A DNA stretch of 64,000 nucleotides from Amyloporia xantha. Its lineage: Eukaryota > Basidiomycota > Agaricomycetes > Polyporales > Adustoporiaceae. How positions within the stretch are numbered: position 1 is the stretch's first letter; the number at the start of each line of letters is the position of its first letter. Positions 10,937 through 58,269 of this stretch are shown here, in pieces. A model generated the notes under the pieces. It was not told where the DNA came from. It did no database searches and saw nothing but the letters and a program-made list of their open reading frames with translations. The position numbers and the translations under genes are program-made. Location: assembly GCA_036971615.1 (NCBI GenBank), contig JAYKKR010000011.1, positions 434,001 through 498,000 of the forward strand. The letters are read 5' to 3'.

Positions 10937-11458
10937 TGTTTGGTACACTTGTTAATAAAAATTGCTATTGAGTTGCTGAAGGCTTCGTCACCAAATTATC
11001 TCAGGTATAAATCCTGTTTTGAGGTCATTTGGACTTGGGCGGGCGGAGCAGCGCCAACTCCCTACAAGTCAAATATTAATCCTGCGGCCTGGGCCTATAT
11101 CAGTGACCCTTTTACTCTCCGTAGAGAGCTCTTCAGCGAATAACGAAGGCTTGGATCTCAACGGAAGACAAAACCAGGAATGGCAACGACAATCAGTTTG
11201 ACCGGACCGTCTTTGCCGAGGATGCTAAATAGTTTCAACTTTCGAGCAAAATTCTACGTACTGTAATCCGTTGCTGTCCGTTGATACCAGCCATGCAAGT
11301 ACTGGACTGGTAGATATGACCTAAGCACACCTGGATCTCATGTTTGTCACCATTGTCTGAAGTTCATAATTGTCGATGCTGAACCATGCCTTCTCTAGCT
11401 TCAGAAGACCCTGACACGGCCAAATCCCCACTGCAGAGGAACTCAAGCCGAGCTCTCA

Positions 11459-24493: not shown

Positions 24494-24501
24494 CCAGATC
24501 C

Positions 24502-33657: not shown

Positions 33658-33684
33658 CATCAGGAAAAACACTTTTGCTCTAGG

Positions 33685-33785
33685 TTCACCTGGGTCACTC
33701 TGGCAAACCTGAGATTTCTCAGGTTGTCTCAGGTCATCTCAGGTTACCCCAGGTCAACCTGAGTTGCTTTGAGCTTCTCTGACGT
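33685..33785. repeat. Left subterminal repeats of the Plavaka element
   Basis: About six copies of a CTCAGGT / ACCTGAG word within 100 bp of the end, in both orientations. The right end has counterparts (44800-45010: repeated CTGAGGT, GCTCTGAGT). In CACTA-like elements such arrays bind the transposition proteins; here that role is inferred. Confidence 0.65.
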
Positions 33786-33838
33786 ATCACTAGCTTACTT
33801 GCATTGTATAATTTTGTACTTTGAATTATACCATAATA

Positions 33839-36800: not shown

Positions 36801-36920
36801 AAGCTTTCCACAACGATACCAAGAACATGAGTGGGAACTGGTGAGATGCGAATTGCAACCTTTCCTAGTGGAGAAATATCGCCCACAAGCAGGACAAATG
36901 TGATTATCCAGGATGTCCAT
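33839..36920 (-). CDS. Plavaka transposase, intact
   Basis: Four exons, 36282-36920, 35929-36225, 34247-35876 and 33839-34194, add up to 974 codons with all phases consistent. The N-terminus has a C2H2 finger (CPACGRYFSTRKGCNSH), then an acidic linker and FNRLLAIPGVKEKLGLSYEN. The second exon ends EMWTGSWWHAVQ. The core has GATLAPLIIATDKTQLTQF with the first acidic residue, DYPEQCLVICSKYGTCPKCR, TPDVLHQLYQGVFKHLVHW and TEMFERLHIDFAKEGW. The last exon has VRVIFKLP and IIP-like VIPLSSIRQSC. These are the landmarks of the Plavaka family (Pfam Plavaka transposase). No stop or frameshift was seen, so it may be active. It is divergent from the dioxygenase gene across about 2.6 kb. Confidence 0.92.
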
Positions 36921-37139
36921 AGAGGAATAATGTCGAGGAGTTTCAGAAGAGGCTCAGTCGTCAGATTCACGCTGATTACAATAGAGATAACATTGATCAT
37001 GATTTTCTCTCCGTAGCTTGATAAGCACTAGTACAATAGTATTAGATCTGATCCTATCATTTCGTAGTGGTAATACTACACCTACACAACAAGAATAATG
37101 CATTATTCATCTATACCACACTCACTTCAACCCCAGAGT

Positions 37140-39065
37140 CGGAACAAATGGCCGGGTGCAGAAATCCCCCAATCGACGGGCGGGGTGGAGGAATCGACGG
37201 CGGAGTGTTACTAGAGTCAACAGCGGGCTGGAGGAATCGCAGCGAGGAGACACGCGCGTTGGCAGGGTGGAGGAATCGACGGCAGGCTGTATGAATCAAC
37301 GGTGGAGGAATTCGCGGAGGGCCGACGTGAGCCAGGTGCACGAGTCGACAGGCAGGGGCAGGTGCACGAGTCGATGGGCAGGGGCTGGGTTTGACGAGCG
37401 GGTGTGCGAATCGACGGGCGGGGGCTAGAATGGACAGGTGCAGGTGCGAATCGACAGGCGCAAGCTCGAATCAATGGGTGGGGGCTCGAGCCGATGAGTG
37501 GGGGCTCGAATCAACAGGCGTGGGGTAGCCAGCGGGCTTGAATCGATGGGCGCAGGCTCGAATCAATGGGTGGGACCACGAATCGACAGCTGGGGGCGCC
37601 AGTCGAAGGGCGCGGGTCTCGTTGTCGGCCCTTGCTCTCGCTTTCCTTCGTCGGCCCTCCTCCTCGCTCTCAATCCTTGCCTCCCTCCCGCTCACCATCC
37701 ACCGGCTGCTGGGCGACTTCCCCTCCCTTCCCCTCCCTCCCTTTCCTTTTCCCTTTCCCTGTCCCCTTCCCTTCCTAGACGGCCAGGATCGAACAATGGT
37801 GCAAACGAAACGATGGAGGGGTGTCGAACCGGACAGCGAGGCGAGCAGGCGGACAGCAAGGCGAGCAGGCGGACAGCGAGGCGAGCAGACGGACGGCCGG
37901 GCAAGCAGACAGACGGCGCGCGAACACGACGGGCGCGGGGCAGGGCGGAAACAGACGGCCGGGGTGGATTCGACGGAGGGGCGTTGAATCGAACAGCGGG
38001 GTGTCAAATCGAGCGGCGAGGGCTCAATTCGAGTGGCGGGGCATAGAATCGAGGGGCGGGGTGTAGGTACCAACGGCGGGGTGTCGAATCGAGCAGCGAG
38101 AGCTCGATTCGAGTGGCGGGGCGTAGAATCGAGGGGCGGGCGTAGGTACCAACGGCGGGGGCTCGAATCGAGCGGCGGGGGCTTGAGTGCGGAAACAGAC
38201 GGCCGGGGTGGATTCGACGGAGGGGCGTCGAGTCGAACAGCGGGGAGTCAAATCAAGCGGAGGGGGCGTATTCGACGAGCAGCGTGCTGTGCAGGCTCGA
38301 GTCGGTCGGTGGGGGCTCGCTTCGACGGCTGGGGCTCGAGTCGACGGGCGCGAGCGCAAATCGACAGCTGGGGGCTCGCTTCGACGGCTGGGGCTCGATT
38401 CGACGAGCGGGAGCGCGAATCGAGCGGCGGGTGCTCAAATCGACAGACGGGGGCGCGAGTCGAGCGGCGGGGCGTCGAATCAACCGGCAGGGGCTCGGTT
38501 CGAGCAGCAGGGCCTGGAGTCGAGCGGCGGGGGCGCGAATCGAGCGGTGGGTGCTCGAATCAACCGGCAGGGTGTCAAATCGACAGGCGGGCATGCGAGT
38601 CGAAAGGCAGGGGCGCGAATCGAAAGGCGGGGGCGCGAATCGAAAGGCGGGGGCGCGAATCGAGCGGTGGGTGCTCGAATCGACCGGCGGGGCCTTGAGT
38701 CGACCGGCGGGGCGTCGAATCGACCGGCAGGGGCTCGATTCGAGCAGCAGGGCCTGGAGTCGAGCGGCGGGGGGTCGAATTGAGTGGCGGGGTGTCGAAT
38801 CGACAGGCGGGGGCGCGAGTCGAAAGGCGGGGGCTCGAATCGACCGGTGGGGGGTGGGCACCAACAGCGGGGCCACGAATCGACCGGCCGCGAGGGTATT
38901 CAACGGGCGTTGGGCGGATGCGAGCGTCGGGGGCGCGAATCAACGGTGAGGGGTGGGAATCGACGGGGTGGGCGCGAATCGACTGGCGGGGCGTCGAAGC
39001 GAGTGGCAGGGCGTCGAATCGACCGGCGGGGGAGGTATTCGATGAGCGGCGGGGGGCTGAGACCA
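37140..39065. repeat. CpG-dense 20-bp minisatellite in divergent promoter
   Basis: The best-ordered part (37970-39065) repeats GAATCGACCGGCGGGGGCTC with changes at positions 8-9 and in the last five bases; for example GAATCGAAAGGCGGGGGCGC recurs without spacing at about 38618-38670. The left part (37140-37620) is more diverged, and 37620-37960 is a pyrimidine-rich insert plus an AGGCGAGCAGGCGGACAGCG array. Each unit has 3-4 CpGs and a G-run that could form G-quadruplexes. Because 20 is not a multiple of 3, all frames stay open for long stretches; I treat those as non-coding. Confidence 0.85.
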
Positions 39066-39393
39066 ACGGCTAGTAGATATTGCACTTACCTGAATGCCCT
39101 TCCCTTGCACCCTGCTTCTCCTTCTCCCCTCCCTGCCTCCTATTTCGATATGTATCCTGTTGAGGATACAAGCGGGCGTGAGCCGCGAGCGAGCGGCTGC
39201 GGCGATGACGGCGGGGTGATCTATGCAGTATACAGACGACGAGCGGGAGATCGATGTGCTGTCGAAAAGACGGCGAGAACAGCTCGCGTGAAAGCAGACT
39301 AGTGAAGACGGCGCGCTGGCGCCAGCGCAGTAGTGAACACTGAAGAAAGAGTGTTCCGCACAAGGGGTAGGGAGGGCAGCGCGAGTATGCCTT

Positions 39394-39433
39394 CCCGAAT
39401 AGGCAGCGTGCCATGGCACGCTGCCTATTCGGG
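39394..39433. promoter_or_regulatory. Perfect 40-bp palindrome before TET/JBP start
   Basis: CCCGAATAGGCAGCGTGCCA is followed at once by its exact reverse complement, with no spacer. It ends 86 bp before the ATG at 39520. It may be an operator-like protein site, a cruciform, or a transcript hairpin; the sequence alone cannot say. Confidence 0.8.
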
Positions 39434-39519
39434 CACGTCCAACGCGAAGTTCAACTTGCGCGTTGATCGTTCGACGTTCGCGTTCCTCTGTTACTCGCTG
39501 CGTGGGCCTCAGCTCTACG

Positions 39520-42500
39520 ATGCCACACACACAGGCTGGTCTCTCATTGTCACATTCCGATGCTGATGTTCTTATCAACTATCTTGTGGCTCAACGGGAT
39601 TCTCATGGTCTCCCACTGCAGGTCTCTGCAGTGCTATCCCGGCTTGAAGCTTTGAGCAACAATGACCTACTAGTGCCGGTTGCCTTGCCTGTTCTGGAAT
39701 CACTTAGACATCCTTGTTATCCTACACCCTCAGCCTCTCCTGGGCCTGAGCCCTCTCACTGTGAAGTGGTTCATCTGGAATCCCAACCTCCATCTTCTGT
39801 TCTGCCCCCGACTCCGGTGATCTCTTGACTCCAAGGCTGGCCGCATTGTCGCCGGTGAGTACAGCTGCTCAGTGAATGTCTATATGATCTCATCACACAT
39901 ACTTCTTCCAGGCCCCAAGTTCGTTAATGCCTCCTGTTGGGCCCGATTCACCTCCGCGCAAGCGACGCAAAAGAACACAACAGGCCTCTGTTCAGGGCCC
40001 CTTAATGGTGTCTGACGTCTGTCGTGGTGGGTTCCCTATCCCACCTAATCCTTCTGCCAGAGCTCAGGAGGGCGAGCACTCGGTGGAGGAGGGATATTCT
40101 GTGCGTGCGAAGTGGAGAGTTGCGAAGCGACCAGCAGTTGTCAAAGCGCGTGTTGCCAAGACTGCTGTTGAGCTCATCTCGCATCTCTCACAAGGTCCCC
40201 GGAGTAATCTGGACAGTCCCGAATGTCAGGAGTGGATTGCCCACATGAAAAAGATGATAGAGGGGCGAATGTGGAAGGAGTTTGAGGGCGTATATGTTAC
40301 GAATGATCTGTGGTCGCTCGTGAGGCGAGTCTCTCAAGTGGAGCGTATGAAGACTGGGGTGGATTACCTTTCTATTATGTCCAAGATTGAGCTTGCAGCG
40401 AAGATTCAGAGGTACGCCAGTGTGCTCTTATTTCTTTTCGTTCTTATCTCATTCTCCATCCAGCATGATGGCTCACAATGCCAGTCTAGATGTTCAAACC
40501 ATATATACGACCAAAATTGCTGGACAACAAGATGCTCCTGCAAAACGGACATTTGAGACTTGGGTTGCCCAAGGCAACAAGTTTGCAGCACTGGCTGGGG
40601 CGGGTATGTTGGTCTGCTTGTCTTATTTGAAAATAGTCTTATGCCATGTTCAGGTTCTGTCTACTTGCTCATGATTGTTGCTGCGAGAGACAAACAGCGA
40701 GATATTTGTCGTGCCCCCTATCCGCAAATCTACAACATGTGTAACATGCTTCGGTTCCCCAAAGCTGGTAAGATACTCCTGGTTGTCATCTCTCTTTCTT
40801 CTAGATCACTTATCGTGCATTGTTAGACACCGATGTTGGACGGGATGTGATTGATCGGTTGATACCTTTGGTCGCTCATCTGCGAGCAACCATTCCTTTG
40901 CATATATCAACCGTCTTGTCCATGGTCATTTTGCAGGAATGCAACCTACCCATGGAGTTAGACTGTCGCAATTTGGATCATACAGATATTTTTTTTGACA
41001 AGTTGAGACAAAAGTATGTCTTGCTTTCTTATGGTGATATAATTTCTCATGTCTATGCCAGTGTTTTCAATGCTCTGAAAAGGGACCGGAACACATGGGC
41101 ATCCTGTCTGACACCCATCTCTGCTGCCGACGCTCCTCTCTCTCTACACATTCTGGGACACAGTCTTCTTGAATCTGGTGCTATTACTGATGGCCCGCCT
41201 TCACCCTGCTCTGACTCCGAAGACGAACATGATATACAAAGTGACAACAATGATGCGCTTTTCGCCATGCAAGATGAAGACTTATATGGTCAGTTCTATT
41301 ATCCTGATGCTACAAACACAAACTACTGCGTCCTCAATACCCATTTTGACCTCTCCGCATCTGAACTTGCACGTGAGCCATATGGAAGAGGCAATCCTCA
41401 GGCACGTTTGAGCTGGACCAATAAGCAAAGGGCTTTGGCAGCAAAAGCCCCAGTCGCAAATGGTTTAGATGAATTTGCGAACAAAGTGAGTTCTTCCCTT
41501 GACTGTTTTCTCCATTATTCTAATTCCTTCAATCCAGATGGAGAGCCATTACAACAAGAAAGGTGTGCGGAAGGCAGATAGTGATTATATTCACATGTCG
41601 CATGAAATGTTGGCTGAGTGCGTCAACAAGATAAACCAATCGAGCATCTTTCTGACTTTTTCATAGCAAGGAGATTGATATCCGCTGTTCGGATGGCAGC
41701 TTATTGGCCTTTATCGCATCTGACATGCCAGCAACCATGCGTGAAAGCCTTACCCGCAATATTCGCACCGCTTTATTGGTCGAGGGCCGTGATGGATTTG
41801 TTCTCACGCACAAAGACAGTTCTGAAGAAGGAAGTAACCATGGGTTTCCTTGTCTGCACTTTTCTTGGTATGCCCGCAATGTTACTCGCGTGAGGATGAC
41901 TTTTCTTTCTCTACCAAATATGTTGCTCACATTGTTGATAGGGAGAAGACGCACCACAGGATGTGCATCCTCTGAACCTGCGGCGCACAGGTACCTCCCA
42001 AACCAACCATCAGCAATTCTCTGCATACGTCTCCAAAGAGCGCGAACAACATGAATATGAGTATGAAAACTTGTGCAACGCTTTTCAGGAATTCTTTGAT
42101 TGGATGCGTGCCAAGGTAAGCCATCATTTCTCATTGCCTATATAAGCTCATGCAATGTCAATAGCTTGAAGCACGTTTGCCTGACGTATGCAAGACATTG
42201 TCTGTGTTTGTGGATGCGTTGCCTGGCTGAGAGACATCTGCGTGTCATCCATTTGGTGGCTTTGTTCTCAATGTCAATGTGGCCACCCATGGACACAGAG
42301 ATGTCAAGGATCTTGCAGCTTGTTTGGTCCTGGCTATTGGAGATTATCAAGGCGGAGAGTTATGTTTGGCTGAGCCGGGCTTAGTGATCCCACTACGCAA
42401 TGGAGATCTGGTTGTTTTTCCGTCAGGCAAGATCACTCATTTTAACTTGCATTATAGTGGTCAACGGGCATCTATTGTACTTCATTCTGACGGTGCAGGA

Positions 42501-42578
42501 GCCAAGTACAGTGAGAATCTGGGTGGTTGGAGAGATCATGGACATATGCATTCGTCGTGGAATTTGTCTACTTTGTAG
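39520..42578 (+). CDS. TET/JBP-type 2-OG/Fe(II) dioxygenase
   Basis: About ten exons, starting MPHTQAGLSLSHSD. Exon 2 (39912-40410) has a nuclear-signal-like PPRKRRKRTQQ and WIAHMKKMIEGRMWKEFEGV. Middle exons give VYLLMIVAARDKQRDICRAP and an acidic region (41200-41290). The catalytic part, about 42250-42520, reads HPFGGFVLNVNVATHGHRD with the HxD iron motif, then GDYQGGELCL, RNGDLVVFPSGKITHFN with the distal His, and GQRASIVLHSD with the Arg that binds 2-oxoglutarate. This is the fungal TET/JBP pattern (oxidation of 5-methylcytosine or thymine in DNA). TET/JBP genes inside fungal DNA transposons are known (KDZ class, Iyer and colleagues). All catalytic residues are present; exact exon borders are not all verified. 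Likely acts in the nucleus on DNA. Confidence 0.82.
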
Positions 42579-42614
42579 TTTCACACGTGACAACAAATAA
42601 ACACGCATGATCAC

Positions 42615-44587
42615 ATGTCACTTCTTGTCTTTCTTCCGTCACCACCCTTGTGTCTTGCCACCGTTTCTCTCATTCAATGGCTGCCAAAAAAGCGTGCAGC
42701 TGCACGCAAAACTTCATCTACTTCTGCTAAGGCATCTAAAGGCAAAGAACCTCAAAACCCGACAGCCTCTGAGTCATCCACACCTGCCCCGTCAGAGTCG
42801 TCTGGCCTGACAGCAGAAGAAAAAGCTCTGTTCAAGAAGCTTCAGGCTAAGTCGCAGAATGCTGCAGCTGCATTGCGCCAGAAGGAAGATGAAGGCCTGT
42901 TCCATTTCCGTGAGATTGCATTGCTGTATTGATTTCTGGTGTAGGTATTCGCAAACGCAACGCAGAGATGCTTGCACAAGATGACGACAGTGACAACAAT
43001 GATGGCAATGGTTCACAGCAAGGACAAAGGAAGAAACAAAAAAGTGCTGGGGAAGATAATCTGGATGATGTTGAGCGTGACATGGCAAAGCAGTTGGGTG
43101 GACACAATTCAGATGATGACGGTGAGAATTATTTGCATTTGGATCTTCCTATTATCAATCATCTATTTTCTCAGAGGACGGAGAGAATGGAGGCCACAAC
43201 AAGGAGAAGGAGGATGACAACAATGAGCCTGGGGTTGATGACGTGTATGAAGTAGATGACCCCAACCATCCGTCCAATATTCCTATGGATGAAGAAGATA
43301 ACGGAGTACGTGTCAGTTGTTTTCATTCCAATCTTGCATTGGCTGAGCTTTGACAGATTCAGATCAGTGAGGATGGCAGAGAGGCGTCTTCTCATAGACA
43401 GCGTGCCCGATCATTGGCCTCGTCACGCATGTCTTCTCGTGCATCTTCTCCAATCTCACACAGGACCAAGGTCACCATGAATGATTTCACATTGTCGACA
43501 GGTAATCTTGCTGTCTTGTCCAAAAGCATCACCCGTGAACGCATTGCCCTTGTCGACGGATTTCCGACAAACACTGATCTATTTTGCTGGGAGTCTGTGC
43601 AGACTGCTGGTGCCAGTGCTTCATCTTTGCAAAGAGGAGTGGAGGAAGCTAACACTAATGTCGACTTGCGGGATAATCTCATCACTTACGTTAAGTTTAT
43701 TTCATGAATCCTTTTTCAACATATATTAACTGATGCATTCCGTAGGCTGGATACGGTATGACTGCACTGCGAGGGGATCTCAAAAGCAAAAGCAAACTCA
43801 AGATCAATGGTCATTATGGCATCACGCCTCAGACGCCAGCTGCTACTGTGCAAAATACTGTTCGCTGGCTGCTGGAAAAGTCCAACTTCATGTACGGTGG
43901 AATGGAGATTGCGGTGAGCATAAATATAATAATTCTCAAATCATAGACTCATCACAATGTTGTCAACAGGATCAGACCGTTGATCGTCAGCAGCCCTTTT
44001 CACATCCTATTCTCACAGATATCATTCGTCAACAATGGTTTGGAAGGGGTAAGGCAGATGTACGTGCGTATCAGAAGATGGTTTCTCAGAAGATGGTCTT
44101 TGGGCGTATCATTGTGCTTGTGGTCACAGCGGTATGGGGTTTCTTCATGTACTAATATGTTAATGCCTTAACTGATTGGAACACACTGGCAGGTGGAATG
44201 CGCAATCATGGAATTTGAGACAGGCATACAACGTCAGATATCCTTCAGTGATGATATCATGAGTACAAGGTAGTTGCGCTCAGTGTTTCACATCCTCATG
44301 GCTGACAAGAATATCTGTATAGATATCACGCAAACTGGAAGGCCTGGCTTAAAGTGGAAAAAGGCAGTCCTAACTGGATCACTATGCTTCAGATGGATAT
44401 GTTTACGGATATTGTGTAAGTTCATGCCTTTAACATATCTATTTTCTGACATTCAAGTTTGCGCAGGACATCTGTGAACAAGGCGCATTTACATCTGGCC
44501 ATTGATAATGACAACCTTGACGATCTGAACTTTGCCCTGTTAGAGGCCAAGGCTGGGCTTGGCAGAGATGAGGGCAGAGATGAATGA
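42615..44587 (+). CDS. Third Plavaka gene, DUF6532-like
   Basis: Begins 37 bp after the dioxygenase stop, same strand. The N-terminal half is disordered and charged: KKRAAARKTSSTSAKASKGK, a short helix TAEEKALFKKLQAKSQNAAA, RKKQKSAGEDNLDDVERDMA and acidic DVYEVDDPNHPSN. The C-terminal half is folded: SHPILTDIIRQQWFGRGKAD, VECAIMEFETGIQ and YHANWKAWLKVEKGSPNW, which resembles DUF6532 of mushroom fungi. The last codons read AKAGLGRDEGRDE. Several introns. A start at the ATG near 42678 (MAAKK) would fit better if one base of the A-run were missing or extra. Possibly an accessory DNA-binding or regulatory factor of the transposon; function unknown. Confidence 0.6.
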
Positions 44588-44699
44588 TTGTCATAGGCGA
44601 CACATTTACTTTTTACTTTCTCGCTGGTCGCTGCTTGGATTCATCTGAGATTTGATTTGATTAATCGTGTCATTCGTTATATTGCAATCTATTCCCAAG

Positions 44700-45045
44700 T
44701 CGTCTTGCATAAGCTTCGGAGTGTTCTGAGAGTAGACTGAAATCAACCTGAAAGAATATGAGAGATATGAAGCGATTGAGGCCTATCCTGAGGTAACTCT
44801 TAGGGTGCGTTGAGATGCATGCAAGGTCTGCTTGGGACAATCTAAGGTCTGACTGAGGTCTGACTGAGGTAGCTCTCAGATTCAGCTTGGGATCAATCTG
44901 AGACGTGACTGAGGTCAACCTGGGTTCCAAAACCTAAATAACTTTTCTCTGAAAGCAACCTGGGTTGCTCTGAGTGCTCTGAGTGCTCTGGGTGCTCTGA
45001 GTGCCCTAGGGCAGCCTAGGTCACTCCTAGGTGAACCTAGGGCCA
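44700..45045. repeat. Right subterminal repeats of the Plavaka element
   Basis: Multiple CTGAGGT words (44780-44920), then GAGTGCTCT repeated four times at about 44970-45000, then CCTAGGT words (45005-45040). These mirror the CTCAGGT array at the left end. Confidence 0.65.
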
Positions 45046-45063
45046 AAGGGGTTTTTCCTGATG

Positions 45064-45201
45064 AAGTATGTGCGCTTGCGGGTCTTGTTGATCCGCGCGG
45101 TCTTGGAGGGTAGTGAAGGACTACCCGTTGATGGAAGACCGAGTCCTTTCTGGGAAAGAACTCGATTATAAGAAGGTCAAGCTGGAATATCCATAACATA
45201 G
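45064..45201 (-). repeat. 3' LTR, inner part
   Basis: Identical by eye to 55666-55800 and ends ATATCCATAACA. It resumes the LTR after the Plavaka insert; the 265 bp between the two pieces are lost. Confidence 0.92.
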
Positions 45202-45245
45202 CCCCCCCAGTCCGTCACTATCCCTTCCAAGACCGCTTAGTCCCA

Positions 45246-46541
45246 CCATGTCTTTGCTCTCGCTACGCGACATTCCTGAGGAATCGATTCCGGATCATTT
45301 TGAAATTCCTACCGCCCCTCGCGTTGGACTCCCGACCTCTTGCGAGCGTTTGAAGCAGCTCTTCACGAAGTCCTCCGGCCGGAGCGGTACGAATGGACTC
45401 TAATCGACGCCATTCACCGCGCGTTCATGGTAAGCGGAATTGACTTTCTAAGAATCTTGCTAACGTTGGTCGGTCTTGTTAGAATGACGATATCTTGGAT
45501 TCCCTGGAGGAGCAGCCCGAAATGGTCTTGCCTCCGATAATGGACGCTCTGACGGTCTGGAGATTAGACCGTGACGACTTACCGCCCACCTATCCCGCCT
45601 ATCTAGCTTCGCTAGATATCATAGACGCAGATCCTGAGTATTGGTTGGGTGAGTAGTATGCGTTTATATCCTCGAGTTTGTCGTGCTAATCCCTTTCCTA
45701 TTCCGTTGCTTAGTGGCAGGAGAGCACGACCATATCGAGACCGACGCGCTTCACGAAGCGGTGGACATGATGGCGAGCGTAGGTGTGATTAAATACCTTG
45801 GAGTGATTACTGTCTGAAAGCACGACTTCAACAGTTTGAAGATGACCGTCGCTGCGACAGGTGCAAAACCGCCGGTCTTGACGTGTGCGAGATCATGAGG
45901 CCAGGAGGGGCCTGCTCTCACTGTAGCCAGCGGAAACAGAAGTGCTCCTTGAGCACAGGAAGAGGCCGTTACCGTCGTCGTACAGGCGAAACCGTCGGTC
46001 TTCCGGTGGCTTCTCCTGACCGTGCTTTCTCTGCCTCCACCAAGCGTTCGAGTAAGTAACCTTGAGCTTGATTTCCTTTCAAAGGCTGACGTTTCTGTTG
46101 CTCAGTTTCTCCCTCCGAGCAGTCTAGTCGCTCCAAGCGGTCTCGCAGGACCGTCAGGTCATCTCGCGCTACAACTCCCCGGTTACGCCCCTTGATACCG
46201 ACGAGTTCGAGCCGTGGGGCGGTATTGAGGTCGCTGGCGGGGATTCTCCGATGGAGGGGGTTGCGGTCTTGTATGACCCTCCAGCTGTGAGCGAGACCGC
46301 GGGAGCTGGTCCGGGGCCCGCTACTCTAGCTCAGCAAGAACGCGCTCAGTTGGAAGCGCAGATTGCGGAGCTAAAGTGCCAGCTGGATGAGCAAACCCGT
46401 CGTCAGCGGTCTAAGAATGCCGAGAAGAAACGTCGCCAGCGGGAGAAAAAGAAAAGTCGCAAGAATGTCGGTTCTGGGAAGGGAAAAGAGGTAGACCGCG
46501 AGGAGGAGGAGGAGGCTGAGTCCGACGAGGAGGACTCGTAA
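45246..46541 (+). CDS. Antisense accessory gene with Zn2Cys6-like cluster
   Basis: Antisense to gag-pol, between pol and the 3' LTR. Exons with good splice sites give LRPERYEWTLIDAIHRAFM (45370-45428), NDDILDSLEEQPEMVLPPIM (45483 on), VAGEHDHIETDALHEAVDMM and a Cys-rich exon (about 45830-46050). Its spacing is C-x2-C-x7-C-x8-C-x2-C-x6-C (CDRCK...VC...ACSHCSQRKQKC), close to fungal Zn2Cys6 clusters, which use x6 at the first gap. Then follow Arg-rich segments and a coiled coil LAQQERAQLEAQIAELKCQL with a basic-then-acidic tail. Frame changes near 45330 and 46150 need an indel or another splice; so it may be damaged. Zn2Cys6 proteins usually bind CGG triplets. I infer a DNA-binding element factor. 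Confidence 0.55.
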
Positions 46542-46761
46542 AATAAGGACTTTATTTACGGCGTAGCTGTACTTATCGGTTTCCTCCTAATGCATCTTTG
46601 CGACGAACCAAGACCGATATATGAGGCGATAAATATTTCATGAATTGTTGGTACAGACAAAACATATAGTCCTCTTATCAGTCCTTCCTCCTAGCCGGTC
46701 TTGTCCCTAAGCCTGAGGAAACCGACTGCCGCATCCATGGTATTCATGGGTATTCCCACAT

Positions 46762-47502
46762 CTATCCCCCCCCCACCAAAATGAAGTCCTCATCAGAGTC
46801 CTCCGAGTCATCAGCCATCGTAGTGTCGTCGGTCTCGCTGGTTACCCTGTCGAAATAAGGCGAGACCGGGTCATACTCTTCTGCACGACGGATGGAAAGG
46901 GTCGGATGGAGAATGAGGTCTCGACATTCATTGGCGGATTCGCCTTCTGTGAAACCGGGCCATCCAATGGACTTGTAGTACGAGACCAACTGGCGGTCGA
47001 CGGTCTCGACACCCGTAAGACCATTGGGGAGCTCCAGACAGGCATGCACAAATTCCCCTACCCAGGAAACTGCATCCACGCCGTCTCGCTGGGCGTCGGC
47101 AACCGCAGTCATAGCCTCCTCTTCCGTCGAAAAGAATCGATTCAACTCGTTGAAACCTCCGTGGAAAGGGTTGGTAAGAAAGACCGGTGGAGACCGAATG
47201 CCTAGTTCGCGACAAGCGAGCTTGATCTGGGGCGTGATGGTGAACTGCGTATGGACGGTTTCCAAAGCAAGCCATAATGCCGCTGCGAAACCGGTATGGA
47301 TGATAGTGCGGTCAGGAAGACCGACTTGGGTGATATATATGGGGAAAGGCGGAGTCCAGGTGAAGAAATTTCCGACAAACATGGTCGAAGGGAAATAAGG
47401 GTTGGTGACTTGAGCGATGGGGACAGTGGGGATGAGAGCGAGCTCTCTGGTAGCTGTAGTGAGGGCGGCCATGGAGCGGTCTTCGTCGAATACAGTGGAC
47501 AT
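46762..47502 (-). CDS. Element-encoded protein of unknown function (246 aa)
   Basis: Single exon on the gag-pol strand, downstream of pol. Starts MSTVFDEDRSMAALTTATRE; middle NPFHGGFNELNRFFSTEEEA and VSWVGEFVHACLELP; ends in an acidic SEDSDEDFILVGGG. The FHGGF...FFSTEEEAMTAV stretch recalls the small fold shared by caulimovirus viroplasmin and the RNase H1 N-terminus, but too weakly to call. Intact frame with five or more AGACCG/CGGTCT copies. Confidence 0.6.
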   Translation of the reverse strand: MSTVFDEDRSMAALTTATRELALIPTVPIAQVTNPYFPSTMFVGNFFTWTPPFPIYITQVGLPDRTIIHTGFAAALWLALETVHTQFTITPQIKLACRELGIRSPPVFLTNPFHGGFNELNRFFSTEEEAMTAVADAQRDGVDAVSWVGEFVHACLELPNGLTGVETVDRQLVSYYKSIGWPGFTEGESANECRDLILHPTLSIRRAEEYDPVSPYFDRVTSETDDTTMADDSEDSDEDFILVGGG

Positions 47503-47767
47503 GATATGAAATAGGCTGAAGAGTTGGTGAACTTCTGAAGGGAGTAGAGAAGACGGATTGCTGAGAGACCGAGGAAAACCGAACTCCTTAAATAATGGTT
47601 CTGTAAGGGTATAGATATAGTCCTTGAAGACCGAACCAGCGGATAATTAACTTATTGTGCAGAGTGGCACACTGGATTGTGGGAGACCGCTAGAGAGAGG
47701 AAAGAGGGACGAACTCACCAGGGGCGTCGGTCTTCGATCCACGAAACCGTATTGAGCCCGTCTTGCA

Positions 47768-50700
47768 TTATGCCACTGAGGTCTGGCTAAGCTTGCTAGC
47801 CACTACCGCTCGGTCTCGACGGTTTTGCCAAGCCTTCAGAATATCAGGAGCGTTTCGTAGCTGAGTGCGCGTTAGCCACTCATCGTATTCTGGACCATAC
47901 CCGACGAAGCAAGTCTTGAACAGGGCGACTCTTCGTCCGTTACGGCTTTCGAGACCGTTCCGCTATAATGGATTCCACCTCAAATTCTGGTAATTCATTG
48001 AAATCTTGCCGAGCAAGATCCTTGGTCGGTCTTACCCCAAATTCAGGGCGACTCATGGTATCGCTCTAAGTGCGCAATGTTGATTACGGGATGAATACCG
48101 TAGGAAGCGGGCAGACGGACTTGATAGGCTACGGAGCTGATTTTTCGGATAATTTCGAATGGTCCGTCATACTTCATAAGGAGCTTCCTTCCGCGACCAG
48201 CTTGAGACCGAAGAAGCTCCAATGAATCCACATTGAGCACTACTTTGTCCCCAACCTCGAATTCGGTCATGATTCTGCCGTTATTGTATGCTCGCTTCTG
48301 GTGAACTTGACCCAGATATAGGGCTTCTTGAGTGTCATGCCGGTCAGCCATAAAACCGTCTACCATATCTCCAGCCTCGGGGTGGCTTGTATCTGAGACC
48401 GATCGCGGTATTGAAGGACCGGGGTTCATTAATGTGCCCCCTGTGATCGGATGATAACCGCGGAGTAGATAAGCTGGGGAATACCCCGTGGCTGAGTGCG
48501 GACTCGTGTTATAGGACAATCGAAGACCGTCCAGGTGATCGGACCAATCGTCCCGAGATGGACCGATATAGGCTCGAAGAGCGATTTCCAAGGTTTGATT
48601 CAAGATTTCGGTCTGACCATCCGCTTGAGGATGGTATGACGTAGTAAGAGACCGTTCAATCTTCATGAGTCGACAGACTTCCTTCCAGAAATCTCCCCTC
48701 CAGCGTACGTCTCGGTCGGAAATGATCTGCTTGGGAAGACCGTATTCACTGAAAATATGTTTGAACAGAAGAGCGGCGGTCTCCTTTTCCGTGATCTTAG
48801 TAGTGGTTGGTATAAATAAACCGTACTTGGTCAGCTTGTCCACTATCACCAGTATATTGTCGAAACCGCTGGAATTGGGTAATTCAGGGATGAAGTCCAT
48901 GGTGATAACCTCGAAAGGGCGTGTCGGAATTGGAATAGGTTGCAGAAGACCGACAGGCGCATGCCTCCGCGGTTTTGACTTCTGGCATACGTCGCAGGTG
49001 GAAACATATTTCTTGATATCGCGAGACATCCTGGGCCAGTAATAAGTAGAGGCGATCCTGTTGTAAGACCGATGATAGCCTGAATGGGCCCCTTCAGTCA
49101 TTAAGTCATGCGCTTCCTTCATTACTTGGACCCAAAGTTCCTCTGGTACGCAGAGCCGACTATTACCTTGGTGATCCTCAAAATATACAAGTCCCTCTGG
49201 AGTGGTTGTGTATTGCGGAAATTCAGGATTAGACCAGTCAGTCTCGGTTTCCAAGTTCTTCTTGACGATCTTGAAGTGTTCATCCTTGCTATAAGCCTTC
49301 TTCCAAGTCTGGACCTCGCCAGGAGTAATACCGACTAGCAGCGAGTGCTTAGAAGATGCTTGATAGACCGAGCTCCAGGGGTTCTCGGTATCTTCTGAAC
49401 TGTGAGTTGCAAACAAAACCATCAGTTCCTCACCTTCATCTTCTTGGTCCAGGGTTTCGCAAAACCGAGAGGCTACCTTGATTAGCTTTTCTTCGAACTG
49501 CGGTCCTAATTCCTCATACATGTCTTTCAGCGGGTCCTCTAATTCCTGATGAAGCTGAAGAGCGTCGGTAGGATCAGAGGAAGGACCATCCTGGTAAGGG
49601 ATCCTCCGTCGAAGTCTCGAGATAGGATCTACGTTTGAGTGAACTCTTCCTGCTCAATGAATGATCTTGAGACCGGGGTATGCTGCGAAAACCGTTCCCC
49701 AGGTGAGTAATCGTCGGTTTACGTTCTGAAAGGTCCGACTCCAGGTTAAGGCTGCATGATCAGTGATAGCCAATACCGAAGATCCTTCCAAGAACGACTG
49801 AAACTTAATTAACCCTTCCTTAAGAGCGAGGGCCTCCCGTTCTGTAGGAGAGTAATTGCGCTCGGCGGCTTTCAGAATGCGAGACCAATAAGCGATAACC
49901 CTTTCAACGTAGACCGTAGTGTCTTCAAAACGCTCCGCCCATTTACCAGGAGACGGTACATCACTCTCTGTGGGCGAGACCGAGACCACTAAGTTCGGTA
50001 TTGGTTCCTTATTGTCAAATGCCTTCTTTAACCGTTCATAAATCTTGGTACCTCGCAAGTCCTTGATTAACATAGGTTGAACCTGTTGAAGGATAGCGGC
50101 GAGACCATAATCACAGGCGTCGGTATATAATCGGTACGGTCTTCCAGGCATGGCATAAGCTCGAACTGGAGCGTTGACCAGGACTTGCTTACAAAGGTTA
50201 AAAGCTTCTTGGTGAACGTCAGTCCATTCCCACCCTAATCCTTCTTTCTTGAGAAGACCGAATAATGGAGCAGCAATCCAGGCGTAAAAAGGGATGTAAG
50301 ACGAGAAGTATACCATCATTCCTAGGAAGACTTGCAGCTCCTTTACGTTCCGTGGTTCCATGAGACCGACGATAGCGTCTACCTTTTCCTTGTGGGTGGA
50401 TATTCCGAGCCTAGACACCTTTTGGCCTAGTAGAAGCAGGGACTGATAGGCCAGGTGACACTTTCCTGGAGACAAGGTGATACCGGCTTGTTCTATGGCG
50501 AGGAAGACCGAGTCGAGATGCTTGACATGATCTTCAAACGAAGTAGAATACACCACAATATCATCGATGTATACCAGAGCGAATATCCATAGAAATGGTG
50601 CCAGTATGTTCTGCATGACCCTCTGAAAGACACTCGGACCGTTCCTAAAACCGAAAGGCATACGACGGAATTGGTGAAGACCGCGGTGAGTCCGAAAGGC

Positions 50701-52736
50701 AGTCTTCTCCTTATCCTTGTCTGCCATTTCTAACTGAGTAAAACCGGAGAGCGCATCGAGAGTCGACAGCCATTGAGCACCGGTAAGGGCTTGTAGAATG
50801 TCCTCCTGTTTGGGTAGAGGAAACTCATCCGGTATTACTTGGTCATTTAACTTTCGAAAATCAATGACCATCCTTGGTTTCCCATTTCGGTATACGATAA
50901 ATGCTGGAGCACCCCAGGGACTCTTAGAGGGTTCGATTACTCCCAGTTCTAGCCAAGTATCCATCTGCTTATCCATAACTTCACGCTTAGCCGGGGACGA
51001 AGGAAACGGAGGAAGGGAGACTGGGGTAGAATTCGGTTTCAATGGCACTTCAACCTTAGCGTTGTAATGTCCTAGCCGTCCGTTGAGGCTGAAAGCTAGC
51101 TTATGCTTTAGGACCACTTGTTCCAAAACCGAACGCTGGGAGTCCGATACATGGCTGCTAAAATCGACCTCTTTAAGGAGCTGAGACTCATCGATAATCT
51201 CTTCTGGGGGCTCGCCGGTCTTAGGTCCGCCTTCCAACGGTTCCGTAGATGAAGGGTCTTCTACGGTGTCCTTTCCTCGACTGGTGATTAGGTCTTGAAC
51301 GGAGCTGGAGACCGTCTGCCCTTGAACTAGGTGACTAAGGACGTCTATCGACCCGTTACTCTCTATTAGTAAACGAATAAACCGAGCATGGGTTACCGCC
51401 TTAGTCCAGGCGGTCTTACCCATGGTTTCTGATCGGTCTAGCCATTTATTCGGGTCGAATGCCTTGCCAAGGACCTGACCTGAAGGAATAACCATAGGAT
51501 GCTTGCTGAAGTTTGCGACATGCAGCGCTGGTCTCTCAGAAGAGATGAACGAGTCTGTGGTTGCAAATACGTCGTCCACATTCTTATGAGTTTGAAAAGA
51601 CCGTTCCACAAATAAAGTCTTCAAGTTGTCTTCGAAGGGCACGTAGACCGATACTAACTTGGAAGATTCAGGAGGAATGATAACCATTTGCTTGGCTCGG
51701 ACTAAGTTATCTTGAGACCGAGAGCGTTGTTGACGCTTTCGTCGCTGATTCTTCTTATGCAGTCTCGTCCTCCCCGTGCGGTCTCCCGATCCAATGAAGA
51801 CCTTGAAGGCTTGTCCATGGTCATCCTTAAGGGAAGAAGTCGAATTCTCCACCTCTAGGGAGATGCCAGTGTCCGCAAACTGTATAGCGGTCTTACCGTC
51901 TTGCCTCAGGACCGAAAGTGAGTATTGGTCCGCGAAGTCGTTGCCTAAAATGAAAGGGGTTGTCATTCCTTTAACGACATAAGCCTCGACGTTCATTTTA
52001 ATAGACCGCTCGTCGGTCTTGAAGATCAAGTCGATAGGAACATAACCAGAAATCTTAGCTCGCCCAGTGACCTGTACCAAGTTGATTTTCTGGCCCGCCT
52101 TGATTTTGGGAGGATGTATCATCGCCTCTAAACACTTAGCAGAGATGAGAGTGATGTCTGATCCCGAGTCAATGATAATATCCTGCATTTCGACCTCTTG
52201 GTCTCCCAAAAATCCGCGGGCCTTTGTAGCCTTTGATCCAAGGAAGGAACAGCCGGGCGGTCTAGCAAGGTGTTTACGAAGTTCTAAGACCGGCTGGTTA
52301 TCTAGGGAAACTGGTCCTTGGAAAAGAGACCGAAGGTTCTTAGTAGCTAGACGTCGACTGCGTCGTAGAGGAGGAGGAGCTGGGTGTGCGCTATAAACCG
52401 TGACGGATTTAGTTTCCTGAGTAGCCGAGGGGACTGCCTCTCCCTCCAGGGCCTTACCTGCTGCTTCGGTCTTGCTAGGCTGAGCAAGATATACAGAGGG
52501 TTCGGTAGACTGGAGGGATTTACGAAAATCCTGCTCGGTCTCCGATTCGACGTCTGACAATCCTAAGTAAGCGATCTCATAGTCCTCCTCTGCGCGTAGT
52601 TCCTCTTCAGAAAGCTGGATAAAATTGGTTCGGGCAAACCGCTGTCCTTGTCGAGCGTGCTTACATTCGTTGTCCCAGTGGAAAGGACTATCACAGTGCC
52701 GACAAGGTCGCTTGCCTAATTCCTGCGGAGTTTTTC
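47768..52736 (-). pseudogene. Ty3 pol (protease, RT, RNase H, integrase, chromodomain), broken
   Basis: The frame opens at 52736 with a zinc knuckle CRHCDSPFHWDNEC. Then come the protease DIIIDSGSDITL (about 52190), RT with LSTLDALSGFTQLEM and FALVYIDDIVVYS (about 50560), RNase H with RLYTDACDYGLAAIL (about 50120), the integrase HHCC finger near 49000 (CDVCQKSKPR), and catalytic VITMDFIPEL, ISDRDVRW and QTEILNQTLE. A TGA at 49654 breaks the RNase H/integrase joint (IIH*AGRVHSNVD); the rest continues in frame to 48043. One frameshift at about 48045 leads to EFGVRPTKDL, another near 47955 to a chromodomain-like FVGYGPEYDEWLTRTQLRNA, ending at 47768. The chromodomain marks it as a chromovirus. 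Pol lies in the -1 frame relative to gag, with no canonical slippery heptamer. Confidence 0.88.
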
Positions 52737-54681
52737 AAGCTTAGACCGGTTGGAATCGTCTCGAGGAAACTTAGGTGGAGACCGGTTAGGAGTAGTGGAG
52801 TCCGCGGCATTAGAACGTGAATCCCTAAACCGATTTCGTCGGTCTTCAAAGGAGGGCTTCAACGGCTCCTTCGAATCAGTACCAAGGCCGACAAGGGTTT
52901 CTTCATAGTACTTAATGGCGTTCTGAAGATCGACGACCTTAGCATATAGGTGAGGGGATAGAACGGTGTTCCACATGACCGGGGCTCCGTCAAGGATTTC
53001 ACCAACCAATTCGGTTTCAGTGTAATCATATACGAATTCGAGCAGTTCCAACTTGCGAATGTAATATTCAGAAGGCAATTCCCTCTGATTTCCGCTGTCT
53101 CGGTATCGAGCACGGTTGGCTTTAGACTTTTGTTGGTCTAACCAAGCCTTGTTCATGTAGTGCTTTCCAATAGCTTTCCGCAAGGAGGTCCACCCTTTCT
53201 GAATGCGCTCTCGTTCATAACCAGGAAGCGAGAAATACCAGTTTTCCGCATGAGACCGAAGGCGCCTAGGTACGACGGATCCAAGCTGTTTGGCTATCCT
53301 GGAAGATCCTTCAGCTATTTGATTGACCTTCATAATCCATCGAGCTAGAGTCTCGGTATCTCCGTCCCAAGTGGGTACTACATCGATTTTCAGCTTGAGA
53401 TCAAACCGAGGGACCTCTGCTGGTCTAGGATCATCGCTGTCGGAGTTGGAATTCTTCGGTTTTCGTTTCGAAGGAATAGGACCCGTCGGTTTCTTGGGAG
53501 GTCCGGTCGGTTTCCCATCATCTGAAGAGTCTGACGGATCGCTGGGATCATCTCCAGGAAACCGTCTCATACGCGGTATTCCCCCTTTACCGAATAATTC
53601 CGTGATGCGGCGACCATGCCTGGCGGGCTCTGCTCGCTTCTTCTTGGCCTTCTCCCTCATTCCCGGGATCCTTGAGGTTGGGTCTTGATCCTCGTCATGA
53701 GGGGGTTCTTCAGCCTCGGATTCTTGAGGAGCGGGAGCGGTGTCTACTAGAGCGGTTTCAGTCGGTCTTGCGTTATCCTCCATATGAGGCGGTTTGGGTC
53801 GGTTAGAAAACGGAGTTCGTCGAAGAGCGGAAGAAACAGTAGGGACCTCTGCTGGAGTTGTCGGTCTTGCGCTTCGAACTGACACATTACTATGCCGACT
53901 AGATACTCGGGGAGGTGTTTCATCCTCATCCTCATCGGGTACTACCTTCTGACGAATCCCTAACACCCTTCCTAGAAACAACAGAAAGGTCTCGACCTCC
54001 GCTCGGTATGCTACTCCTAGAATCTGAAAATCGTTGACTGAATAAACCACCTCCTTGGACAGTCCTGTTTTGTCGAACTTAGGGAAAGGAGGAGGAGTAG
54101 AACCGCAAGCCTGAATGCGGTTTCCGTAGGTATAAGTAAGCTTTCCGAGTAAAGCGTTAAGCTTATTATAAAGATTAAGGTCTGGACATACTCCTATAAT
54201 ATCGTTATCGGAGGAGTATAGAATAGGGTTGCGTAGCAGTTGGTCTAGTAGATCTATTTCCTTATACCAATACCGACTCTCCGTTCGAGATAGGTGCGTG
54301 CCATCGCGACCGTCTGGAAGAGTGTAAGGGGCGCTTTAAGTATTCTTGAGCTAGCAGGGTTGCGTCGTACCTACGGCCAAATACTGCACCAAGTGGTCCG
54401 TCGGTGTTAGCAAGGTCGCGCAAAGCATTGGTTATCGGAAATTCCAAGGGGACCGAACTTACGTTGGTAAACCGTACTGAATCGACCGGTCTTGCTCCTT
54501 TGACGGCGACAAGGTCGGTCTCGAATAGTGATTGATCCACGAGTTCCTCGTCTTCTTCGGAATTGTTTTCCCTAGGAGATGAACCTGGAAGGGGATGATC
54601 CGCTGGGTCATCTCGGTCTTGAAGACCTTGCTGGTAAGAGGCGGCATCCTCGCTTCCTACTGCTACAAAGGACATTGACAT
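52716..54681 (-). pseudogene. Ty3 gag, one frameshift
   Basis: Starts MSMSFVAVGSEDAASYQQGL at 54681. After KRP near 54330 the frame must change by one base, in a CCCC run, to enter the second open frame (YTLPDGRDGTHLSRTE ... to 52716). The capsid region has IDVVPTWDGDTETLARWIMK, YFSLPGYERERIQKGWTSLR and ELVGEILDGAP, typical Ty3 gag. It ends SKLEKLRRN* where the zinc knuckle frame of pol takes over. Either decay or one consensus error. Confidence 0.82.
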
Positions 54682-54732
54682 TGTTAGTGAATCTATACTG
54701 AAGGAAATGTGAGTAACTTTTCAAAAGGAAGT

Positions 54733-54750
54733 TCCCAGTGCGTCCACCAA
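54733..54750 (-). promoter_or_regulatory. Putative primer-binding site
   Basis: Just inside the 5' LTR on the minus strand: TGGTGGACGCACTGGGAA, starting with TGG as expected for pairing with a tRNA 3' CCA, two bases from the LTR end. The tRNA was not identified. Confidence 0.55.
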
Positions 54751-55800
54751 TGTTAAGAACCAGGGTAGTACTAGTACCTAAGCTCGTATACCGGTAACGG
54801 ATAGGATAATAAAAATACTTAGACTGTATGCTTGAGTCCTAATGGCTAGTTAGGAGTGGAATGCCGGTATACCAAGTAAGAAGTATAAGACCGTAGGGTC
54901 TTATGTTAGAGATTGGCGTGAGCCTAAGAGTATCGCTCAAGACCGAAGGTCGTTAGGTTAAGACCGACTTAGAGAGATACCGCTTATGTTCACGCAGAGA
55001 TAAGGTTTAAAGGTAGAACTTCCTAAACAAAGATAACTCAAATCCTTCGCAAGTATTGTTGCCAGACCAAGGGCTTTAGGTAGCGCGAAGCAATACCGAA
55101 GACCGCTACTTAGCGCGAAGCTATAAGTAGTTTGTCAAGTCTGGGATAGATCTCTTTACCAGCGCGTAGCTATGGTAAGATCTACAATGATATGTGAAGG
55201 AGACAAGGTCTCGTTGTGCTAAGAGCTCAGAGGTAAAATAGATTGCTTGAAACCGAAGACCGTCGGTCTTCTTAAATACAAGTGAGAAATGCTAGAACCT
55301 TCTAAACACGCGTAGTCCGTACTTCTACAATACACTGCCCAATACCTGTGCATCTATTGTTCTCTACGCACTGCCTTGAATACTCACTGAGACCGCGCTG
55401 CTATCCTCGTGTGGCGGAGTGGCGCACCTCGGGCATTCATCGGTCTTGCCTCGGTCTTCCTCGATCCATAAGGTGAGATCGGTCCGCTCTCCGTAGGTCG
55501 GATTGTGCTACCGGTCCTCGAGGTGTTTCACGGGACTCGACCTCTCACGCGAAGTGTGGGCGTTTGTGGGTCCCGAGGATCCGCTTTCCTCCAAGAAGGG
55601 CATGGAGGACTACCCGTTGAGCGGGAGACCGAGTCATCGTCCCAAAGAGTATCGGTTTCGCACGCAAGTATGTGCGCTTGCGGGTCTTGTTGATCCGCGC
55701 GGTCTTGGAGGGTAGTGAAGGACTACCCGTTGATGGAAGACCGAGTCCTTTCTGGGAAAGAACTCGATTATAAGAAGGTCAAGCTGGAATATCCATAACA
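54751..55800 (-). repeat. 5' LTR, complete (1050 bp)
   Basis: TG...CA ends, 12 AGACCG/CGGTCT copies. Its last 260 bp contain an imperfect tandem duplication of about 118 bp (GGACTACCCGTTGA near 55605 and again near 55721). The first unit plus upstream sequence (55401-55665) is what the left LTR lacks. Confidence 0.93.
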
Positions 55801-58269
55801 AGCAGCAAGCCTACCGTGATGTGAGTGGCAAGGTGGTCGTCGTTGATGCTCAACTGGTACGAGAGGAGCCAGGAAAAACTAAAAAGACACCTATCGTTGT
55901 ATGTTATCCTGCTGATAGTTTCTAATGCGCCGGTTCATATGTTGACTGTGTGATAAATATAGCACGAAGTCGTTGATAATGTTCCTGTTGATATCAGCGT
56001 CAGGGAACTGAAGAGAATTTGCTTCACTGCGATTCACGAAGAATGGAATCGCATCAACAATGGCATTCCATTCGAGCTCCCCTTCGACCAACTCCAACTT
56101 TGCAACAAGCTCGGGGTCAGATTGGAGACACCGGTCAATCCATCAGAGCCTGATAATGCGGCCATTCGGAAGGAGTTCTACAAGGTCCCGGGGGGCAAGA
56201 ATGCAGGGAAGGCAGGTGAGAAGTTCAAAACAGGCAAGACCATCGTCTATTTGCAGATGCCAGAGAACGTCCATCGTGAATGGCAAAACTGGCTCGATGA
56301 CCTCTATGCAGCCGAATTAGAGAGTGAATACCGAAGCACAAATGCTCAGCAATTGCCAGTCCCTGTGAACTCGAAGGATGTGAAACAGAAGCGAAACGTC
56401 AAGGGGGAAAGGCGCCGCGATGCTAGTGGTCCAGGTGGAAACCAAAGGCAGCCCTCTGAGCGCGTGTTGCGCTCCAGATCAACGCTCCGGACCACAAATG
56501 GAACAGTGCGTCTAACTTCCTTCAGTTGAGCCATCACTCAGATAACAACTTGTTACAGCACGGTGTCAGAGAGACAATGGTCGACTCCGAGTCCAGGATG
56601 GACTCTGAAAATTATGTCAGTGCTGGTGGCTCCCTGACTGGTGTCTCGAAGGCAATGTCAGAAGCGGATGAGCAGCAACCGCTTTTCTACAGTCCGATGA
56701 GGCACTCGGAGATGATGAGTAGTGCTCGTCTGACCCCCGACTCGCAGGCATCGGCCATGGGTAAAGGTTTTCGAGGCTTGCAGATCGAGGTTGGCGCGGA
56801 TGTATTCCAGTTCAACACCCAGAGAACTGACTGATAATATTTCAGGCCTCCGAGTCGTCCAACTTGAATAGGACTAATGACAAACCCTCAGCGCTTCCAA
56901 TTGGACGCCGTGACCACAACTTGAAGCATGCGAAGCATTCTTTATCGGTACGTTCACCATTACCTCACGACTTGACCAGAATATGAGTGACTCAGTTGTA
57001 CCAGGACCATACACTAGCAGACTCAGATTCACCCGCTGCATCGACATCAAGCAGTCTGCCTTCAAAGCGTCCTCGTCTTGAGAACCACTTGACACCGGAT
57101 CTGCGAGTCAACCTTCTTTCGGCCCTTCAAGCACAAGGCCAACGAAAGGGCACTGTACCGATCGCTCGCACTTTATGTATGTGTATCATGACACTGCTTT
57201 CTTCAATTTCTAAACTCACACTGAATGACACTACAAGTCGACGCCCGTTCGGTGCCCGTCATCGTCAGAAGGGTCATACATCCAAGCTCTTTCGCAGCTG
57301 TCTGTGCAGCGACAGAGTCGCAAAAGGGACACTTTGGTCCTGCGCTCTCGGGCACGATTGTACTTGAAAACGCGAAGCGTGCTGACATGAATGGCTCGTT
57401 CAAGAAAGCATGGTTCGGCACAATCAATGTCACGCCTTCATTGTTTTCATCTGTCGATCGGCAAGTCTGTATCAAGCAGACATTCTATAGGCAGAACGGT
57501 GAACTCCTGACTTACGATGGAAGGCGCCAAGCGAAAGACTTGATCGTCGAAGTACATTGTCTCGTATGGGCCCAGGTGCTCCTAGCCCTGGCCAAAACGT
57601 GGATTGAGGAGCGCCTCGTCATGCTTGGAGACTTGCCCTTCGAGCTCCCTGACATGCGCTATGTTGATGCAGCCTTGGCGAATGAAAAAGGCGGCGAGAA
57701 GGCAGTGTACCTTGTTGAAGAGATCATAGGTAGCGGAGAAGGCAAATTCACGAAGTACATTAACAACGACTCAGCGATTCCACTGCAGCAGCGCTCTCAG
57801 GAGGCGAATCTGCGAGCTGAGTATCTTGCATTTACACAGCATGTACAGTACTGGCAGACAGGGAAGGTTGCATACATCACAGACTACCAAGGTATGTTCG
57901 TAATCATGATCTATGTAGCGGTGTAATGAGGACTCGTACTAAAATATTTCGCAGGTGGACGCACACTCCTGACAGACCCCCAGATCATGACCCATCCGTG
58001 CGCATCTTTCGCTCCACATGCAGCGACGATGACAACACACTAACCCCTGGTTATACAGTGCTCTTGGCCCCATTTTTGCTGAAGGAAACATACCAGCAGG
58101 CTATCATGAGTTCGAACGTCAACACCAGTGCAACCAGTTCTGCGAATTCTTTGAAGTCCCCAGCGACTATGATGCATGGCCTCTTGACGCACTTCTTCAA
58201 GCTTGGGAGGATGAGCAGCGAGACGAGAACATGGTGTTGGAAACGGCAGAGGCAGCCCCAAAATCATAG

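Follow-up and report, generated by a model that had tools for sequence, protein, structure and literature searches.

A Ty3 retrotransposon of Amyloporia xantha saturated with the word AGACCG/CGGTCT, with a zinc-cluster-like antisense gene as the candidate source of its reader

The VANDAL elements are DNA transposons, not long terminal repeat (LTR) retrotransposons. Their motif YAGTATTAY lies mainly in non-coding tandem repeats and in one orientation, the VANC21 motif is rare among other transposons, and VANC21 induces a loss of methylation (PMC5735166). Plant Retand elements carry antisense genes (TRP28 open reading frames, ORFs) with a predicted DNA-binding domain (PMC11963269). Here we analyze a window of 64,000 nt of Amyloporia xantha contig JAYKKR010000011.1 (434,001–498,000, forward strand), which holds a Ty3-type LTR retrotransposon saturated with the hexamer AGACCG and its reverse complement CGGTCT (hereafter, the word). 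The complete element lies on the minus strand and comprises 33008–33661 and 45064–55800, split by a Plavaka transposon. Genomic comparisons were limited to one genome, A. xantha GCA_036971615.1. The saturation is a solid observation and one surprising to a specialist; the identity of the protein reading the word is a well-motivated guess from sequence.

Within 45064–55800 the word occurs 85 times (48 AGACCG, 37 CGGTCT), or about once per 126 letters, against 7.0 expected under an order-1 Markov model, and it is the first hexamer both by count and by ratio; a hand count in the first-pass annotation had given about 80. The left LTR piece adds six copies, the insert at 33658–45063 has two, and the rest of the window (52,563 bases, excluding 33001–33700 and the element and including the insert) has 11, in agreement with the low background described earlier for insert and flanks. 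The other top-listed hexamers mostly overlap the word (AAGACC, GACCGA, GAGACC) or differ from it at position 2, and enrichment of many unrelated hexamers was not seen. Among the position-2 variants, AAACCG (38 vs. 5.4 expected) and ATACCG (22 vs. 3.8) are raised, while ACACCG (4 vs. 3.8) is not; AGACCA (13 vs. 5.9) and AGAGCG (14 vs. 6.7) are raised about twofold. The flanking bases, A or G preferred before the word and A or C after it, add little information and give an extended form R-A-[G>A>T]-ACCG-[A/C]. This one-base variant profile, with tolerance chiefly at position 2 (G>A>T), looks like that of a protein–DNA site.

A synonymous-codon shuffle of the five sense ORFs, the check on which the earlier claim of a DNA-level signal had been staked, yielded a mean of 10.38 copies and a maximum of 18 in 400 shuffles against 52 observed. 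The only other hexamers with z > 5 in this shuffle were GACCGA, GAGACC, AAGACC and AAACCG, all overlaps or a variant of the word. The shuffle is conservative, since it retains a codon usage already shaped by the word. Outside the five sense ORFs, 33 more copies are found in 3,714 bases.

The layout of the word along the element was then described by frame, orientation and spacing. It is present in all three codon frames, the two orientations are about equally used (p = 0.28), and each of nine tabulated subregions carries 4.3–14.4 copies per kb, with the minimum in the 5′ leader and gag and the LTRs among the densest; the spread through the whole element noted earlier thus holds. Together with the codon shuffle, the use of all frames and both orientations rules out a protein motif as the source of the word. 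The coefficient of variation of the gaps between copies is 0.88, compared with 0.98 when copies are placed at random (P 0.17), so spacing is near random; adjacent copies less than 40 bp apart occur less often than chance would give (14 vs. 22.5, P about 0.01). Neighboring copies share orientation in 41 cases and oppose it in 43. The inverted pair AGACCGTCGGTCT pointed out in the first-pass annotation is real (55257–55269), although such pairs are not typical and neither they nor regular spacing are enriched, which leaves a role for them without support. A tandem origin was likewise rejected, the single array being a weak one of 11 bp in the LTR only. Because spacing is near random, orientations are balanced and only this one weak array occurs, there is no sign of dimer geometry, strand preference or tandem origin. 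Symmetric orientation and near-random spacing would fit a factor that binds double-stranded DNA at independent sites.

Judged by pol DNA, the genome contains four long copies at 97–100% identity (the window's own included), 13 fragments at 96–100%, a sister subfamily with four copies at 84% and three matches at 65–66%. Window and sister are 82.6% identical in pol, where the sister has 47 word copies in 5.9 kb and the window 40. Counted in both directions, 64 of 87 pol copies are retained between the two, compared with 29.5% of all hexamers; split by direction, this is 32/40 window sites and 32/47 sister sites against 0.29–0.30 for other hexamers. The word ranks fourth in retention among 95 hexamers with at least 14 occurrences; of the three ahead of it, two (GACCGA and AAGACC) overlap the word and one (AAAGGA) does not. 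The stretch of the extra sense ORF (ORFx) and the antisense gene retains 20 of 37 copies against 16.4%. Private pol sites (8/40 in the window, 15/47 in the sister) indicate that word copies have therefore also been gained or lost. In the protease–reverse transcriptase (RT)–RNase H ORF, where synonymous divergence between the two is high and nonsynonymous divergence low (dS 1.27, dN 0.024), third positions of codons for the same amino acid are conserved in 39 of 45 cases inside the word and 478 of 846 outside (p = 3.5e-5), as are fourfold sites in 28/34 against 217/407 (p = 0.001). The conservation at third codon positions that the first-pass annotation had proposed to look for is thus present.

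In a set of 16 copies or fragments belonging to the window's own family, some of them from one element, 300/319 window sites (0.94) and 300/340 copy sites (0.88) are kept, compared with 0.88–0.91 for other hexamers, which does not support a mutation cold spot. Since recent copies lose the word about as fast as other hexamers, selection in the active lineage, rather than a low mutation rate, best accounts for the retention between subfamilies. With the codon shuffle and the orientation symmetry, these data support the earlier view of a DNA-level signal spread through the element. An RNA-level signal or a mutational bias could also produce a short dispersed word, and even recent copies retain window sites slightly better than other hexamers (0.94 vs. 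0.89–0.90); we nevertheless regard this as very improbable, as the two orientations are about equal (48/37), the codon-preserving shuffle falls far below the observed count, only one weak tandem array exists, and copy sites decay like others while retention between subfamilies lies far above that of other hexamers. The word might instead be a self-limiting or host silencing mark that recruits methylation or a repressor. It contains a CpG, and the commonest non-identical copy forms, AGACCA and AGACTG, are CpG decay products. Purifying selection, however, keeps the sites in the lineage, and a mark purely harmful to the element would presumably be lost, so we consider this account improbable.

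The word was also counted in other Ty3 elements of the same genome (loci are labelled L and contigs C). Fourteen loci that share a homologous pol with the window element (L037–L045, L048, L054, L060, L064, L065) hold 40 copies in 68,320 bases and show no saturation, as a comparison with other Ty3 families suggested in the first-pass annotation now makes plain; they include the nearest relatives, L064 and L065, at about 59–65% protein identity, L065 being partly telomere repeat. This count omits L022 and L023, which overlap L044 and L043 (7 sites in 7,251 bases), and L024. The last, a 65% match with 18 sites, was entertained as a saturated distant family and rejected, 16 of the 18 sites lying in the LTR and antisense start of a window-family copy on C6. 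A related LTR, L063, carries nine copies in 1.8 kb. In this genome, saturation is restricted to the two subfamilies. At least one of the other families is a chromovirus (L060); like the rest, it has homologous pol but neither saturation nor a match to the antisense protein.

These counts bear on the possibility that a host transcription factor binds the word, of which the element gained many copies to drive its expression, with another role for the antisense gene. Fungi have many zinc-cluster factors, and the LTRs are among the densest parts of the element. Sites near the promoter would suffice for that purpose, yet the word also fills gag, RT, integrase and the antisense gene; word pairs within 30 bases number 363 genome-wide, near the 328 of the reversed-word control; and other Ty3 loci of the same host do without saturation. 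We therefore judge a host factor unlikely, though it is the strongest of the alternatives. A three-site pattern was uninformative, as it matched the genome at 2 places and its reversed control at 4.

Other elements were screened for saturating words of their own, and none was accepted: the high words in L032, L048, L049, L051 and L053 derive for the most part from 86-bp-step arrays or from other dense flank repeats. In L032, L049 and L053 the 86-bp-step arrays adjoin fragments of the window's Ty3 family. Dense GC words occur in a flank of L033, and some AT-rich words are raised in L057 (TACAAA, 22 vs. 4.5). A 30-base string with the word at each end is present on many contigs (e.g., C4:27108–27137) and probably belongs to another repeat family. 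At L065 (C6:927900–929818), a Ty3 pol piece lies near telomere-type CCTAAC repeats at the contig end. L060 has a Pfam Chromo domain after integrase (E = 8.2e-14) and, downstream, a stop-free sense frame of 981 aa.

A predicted spliced gene, already noticed in the first-pass annotation, runs antisense to gag-pol at about 45248–46541 on the plus strand. In our hand-made model it begins just inside the LTR and encodes a Zn2Cys6-like domain and a basic/coiled-coil C-terminus. The zinc-cluster exon encodes CDRCKTAGLDVCEIMRPGGACSHCSQRKQKC, whose codons C-X2-C-X7-C-X8-C-X2-C-X6-C (45853–45945, plus strand) place six cysteines in two triplets, as in fungal Zn2Cys6 domains and near their spacing, the first triplet having X7. 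All six cysteines and one lysine are invariant among four sequences. The domain matches Pfam Zn_clus (PF00172) at E = 0.0015 through the second cysteine triplet only, and the two halves of the cluster look swapped in order relative to Gal4. Zn2Cys6 proteins usually read a CGG triplet, and the word can be written CGG+TCT.

In the sister subfamily (L055) the antisense gene is open, with five GT-AG exons and 357 aa. Differences between window and sister by codon position are 11/8/35 in exon 2, 23/17/49 in exon 4 and 11/15/42 in the C-terminal 71 codons; as they fall mostly at third positions, the protein has been under selection, far looser than that on pol. Exon 5 continued in the exon 4 frame gives 95/77/89 with no third-position excess, because the window copy leaves one frame there, and compared with the sister the window gene shifts frame within exons 1 and 5. 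When the sister protein was used as query in a translated search, only the two subfamilies, weakly matching paralogs (C57, C15, C59) and three matches at E 0.1 or worse were recovered. The paralogs on C57 and C59 share the cysteine pattern; those at L056 (C57:33600–35400), C15:80–376 and C59:259642–259938 form a paralogous family with a similar swapped-looking zinc cluster. In the protein database, 8000 candidates were scored for the sister protein and none reached E 0.01, and four pattern matches in viral contigs included no relative. A copy on C48 was dropped as an intron-free version of the gene, the zinc-cluster stretch being missing there. In five copies (C24, C21, C34:2.26 Mb, C25, C18) the antisense region is only 83–86% identical to the window's, whereas their pol pieces are at about 97–98% and the LTRs beside C24, C21, C25 and C18 at 96–98%. 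This suggests that the antisense module evolves or is exchanged faster than the rest of the element, as might fit a protein in an arms race or one of changing specificity.

We hypothesize that this Ty3 lineage has filled its whole length, coding parts included, with candidate sites for a sequence-specific DNA-binding protein, of the form CGGT-C/T/A-T. The most probable reader would be the element's own Zn2Cys6-like protein, whose spliced gene extends from the 3′ LTR in the direction opposite to gag-pol; an element-encoded factor, one of the options raised in the first-pass annotation, is favored because the antisense gene has this domain and because, within this genome, saturation is confined to the lineage bearing the gene. 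Through many independent, monomer-type sites the protein could cover the element's chromosomal copies in trans and preserve their capacity for expression, by anti-silencing or activation, as VANC does on VANDAL elements. Anti-silencing or activation fits selection on the number of sites, and it appears the most likely function, with packaging, integration and host-factor readings beside it. That the saturating word represents sites for the element's own zinc-cluster protein, serving anti-silencing or activation, we put at a probability of about 0.5. The bolder formulation, in which the element rewrote its genome down to synonymous codons, using the 6-bp site that its antisense-encoded protein reads as an end-to-end self-recognition code, we hold tentatively and at slightly under even odds.

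The full-length spread of the sites is also what coating of complementary DNA (cDNA) would be expected to produce. An element protein (the antisense zinc-cluster protein, ORFx or integrase) might bind cDNA or resident copies for packaging, for the pre-integration complex or for self-targeted integration, instead of acting on chromatin; at C34:2.37 Mb and at C59:0.51 Mb, matches to the LTRs of the two subfamilies are separated by about 0.3 and 1.0 kb. Other Ty3 families manage without the word, and a nuclear-type protein transcribed antisense would not obviously enter particles, which makes this explanation rather unlikely, somewhat more so than a host factor.

Several observations weigh against the zinc-cluster protein as reader. 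The domain does not reach the curated Zn_clus cut-off of 21 bits (window 19, L056 12.8, sister no match), a sequence search of the PDB found no relative, and the structure predicted for the 63-aa domain from a single sequence was poor (predicted local distance difference test, pLDDT, 60). The window copy of the gene looks frame-broken, unless it is spliced otherwise, and three other copies carry the window's antisense region at 99–100%, so a protein of their own was apparently dispensable for recent copies. Since the gene looks broken and its region is common to these copies, the protein, if important, is assumed to come in trans. The zinc-cluster exons of window and sister are 59% identical, yet both subfamilies have the same word. 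The surroundings of the paralogs at C57 and C59 are without AGACCG saturation. The apparent absence of the gene from other Ty3 elements is based on the translated search and on one 3′ region read, that of L060, which is without the cysteine pattern. Retention of the word is, moreover, 6/22 in the 5′ part of the antisense gene against 8.2% and 10/19 in the LTR against 28.4%, where the excess rests on few sites.

The remaining architecture is that of a Ty3-type element, with RT, RNase H and then integrase (the Ty3 gene order), LTRs and a target-site duplication all present. The LTR termini are TGTTA…TAACA, and a 5-bp repeat, AGCAG, flanks the element at 33003–33007 and 55801–55805. On the minus strand, the right (5′) LTR occupies 54751–55800 (12 word copies within 54745–55804), followed by a gag-like ORF (52716–54050; assigned by position, no Pfam match), the protease–RT–RNase H ORF (49654–52560; 24 word copies), the integrase ORF with Pfam matches to H2C2, rve and the Tf2-1 SH3 domain (48043–49521), and ORFx (46765–47646 from stop to stop, ATG at 47502), which has no Pfam match. 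A stretch at 47771–47962 (minus strand) resembles a chromodomain by eye only and has no Pfam match. The left (3′) LTR, recognized by blastn to the right LTR and by its AGCAG, consists of a first part at 33008–33661 and, beyond the Plavaka insertion, a remainder at 45064–45198 with two word copies. Because the two LTRs are 99.4% alike over 661 aligned positions (blastn) and identical over the last 135 (45064–45198 and 55666–55800), insertion of the element was recent. The DNA transposon inside the left LTR spans 33662–45063; its ORF at 34239–35915 (minus strand) matches Pfam Plavaka (4.6e-91), and it contains an array of ~20-bp units at about 37342–39061. Elsewhere in the window, 8068–11069 and 23622–26605 are similar segments, inverted relative to each other and 75–100% identical. 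A search of a plasmid collection gave no match.

In open-licence literature searched by title or abstract opening, no Ty3 element combining a saturating word with an antisense zinc-cluster gene was found. HBZ of human T-cell leukemia virus type 1 (HTLV-1) is a bZIP protein, unlike the zinc-cluster product here, and the HTLV-1 genome is not known to be saturated with its site. The resemblance to HBZ lies in a nuclear regulatory protein whose gene is antisense to gag-pol (PMC11963269). Retand, also a Ty3 element, carries between pol and the 3′ LTR a gene for a predicted DNA binder in antisense to gag-pol; its domain and kingdom are different, about half of the elements have tandem repeats there, and the portion of the text at hand mentions no saturating motif (PMC11963269). 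With VANC21 and VANDAL21 of Arabidopsis, the likeness is a dense short motif that marks one family and is rare elsewhere, together with an element-encoded reader, a candidate in our case (PMC5735166). In contrast to VANDAL21, the element here is an LTR retrotransposon, and its word occurs in both orientations, in coding and non-coding sequence, with hardly any tandem repeats, and is kept at synonymous sites (PMC5735166). VANC21 is the closest working model for the mechanism. If our reading is true, codon choice in a transposon can be set by a DNA-binding code, and the escape of transposons from silencing, or their steering of it, becomes directly testable in fungi; element-coded motif saturation would then have arisen outside the plant VANDALs, in a retroelement whose coding sequence took up the motif by point changes.

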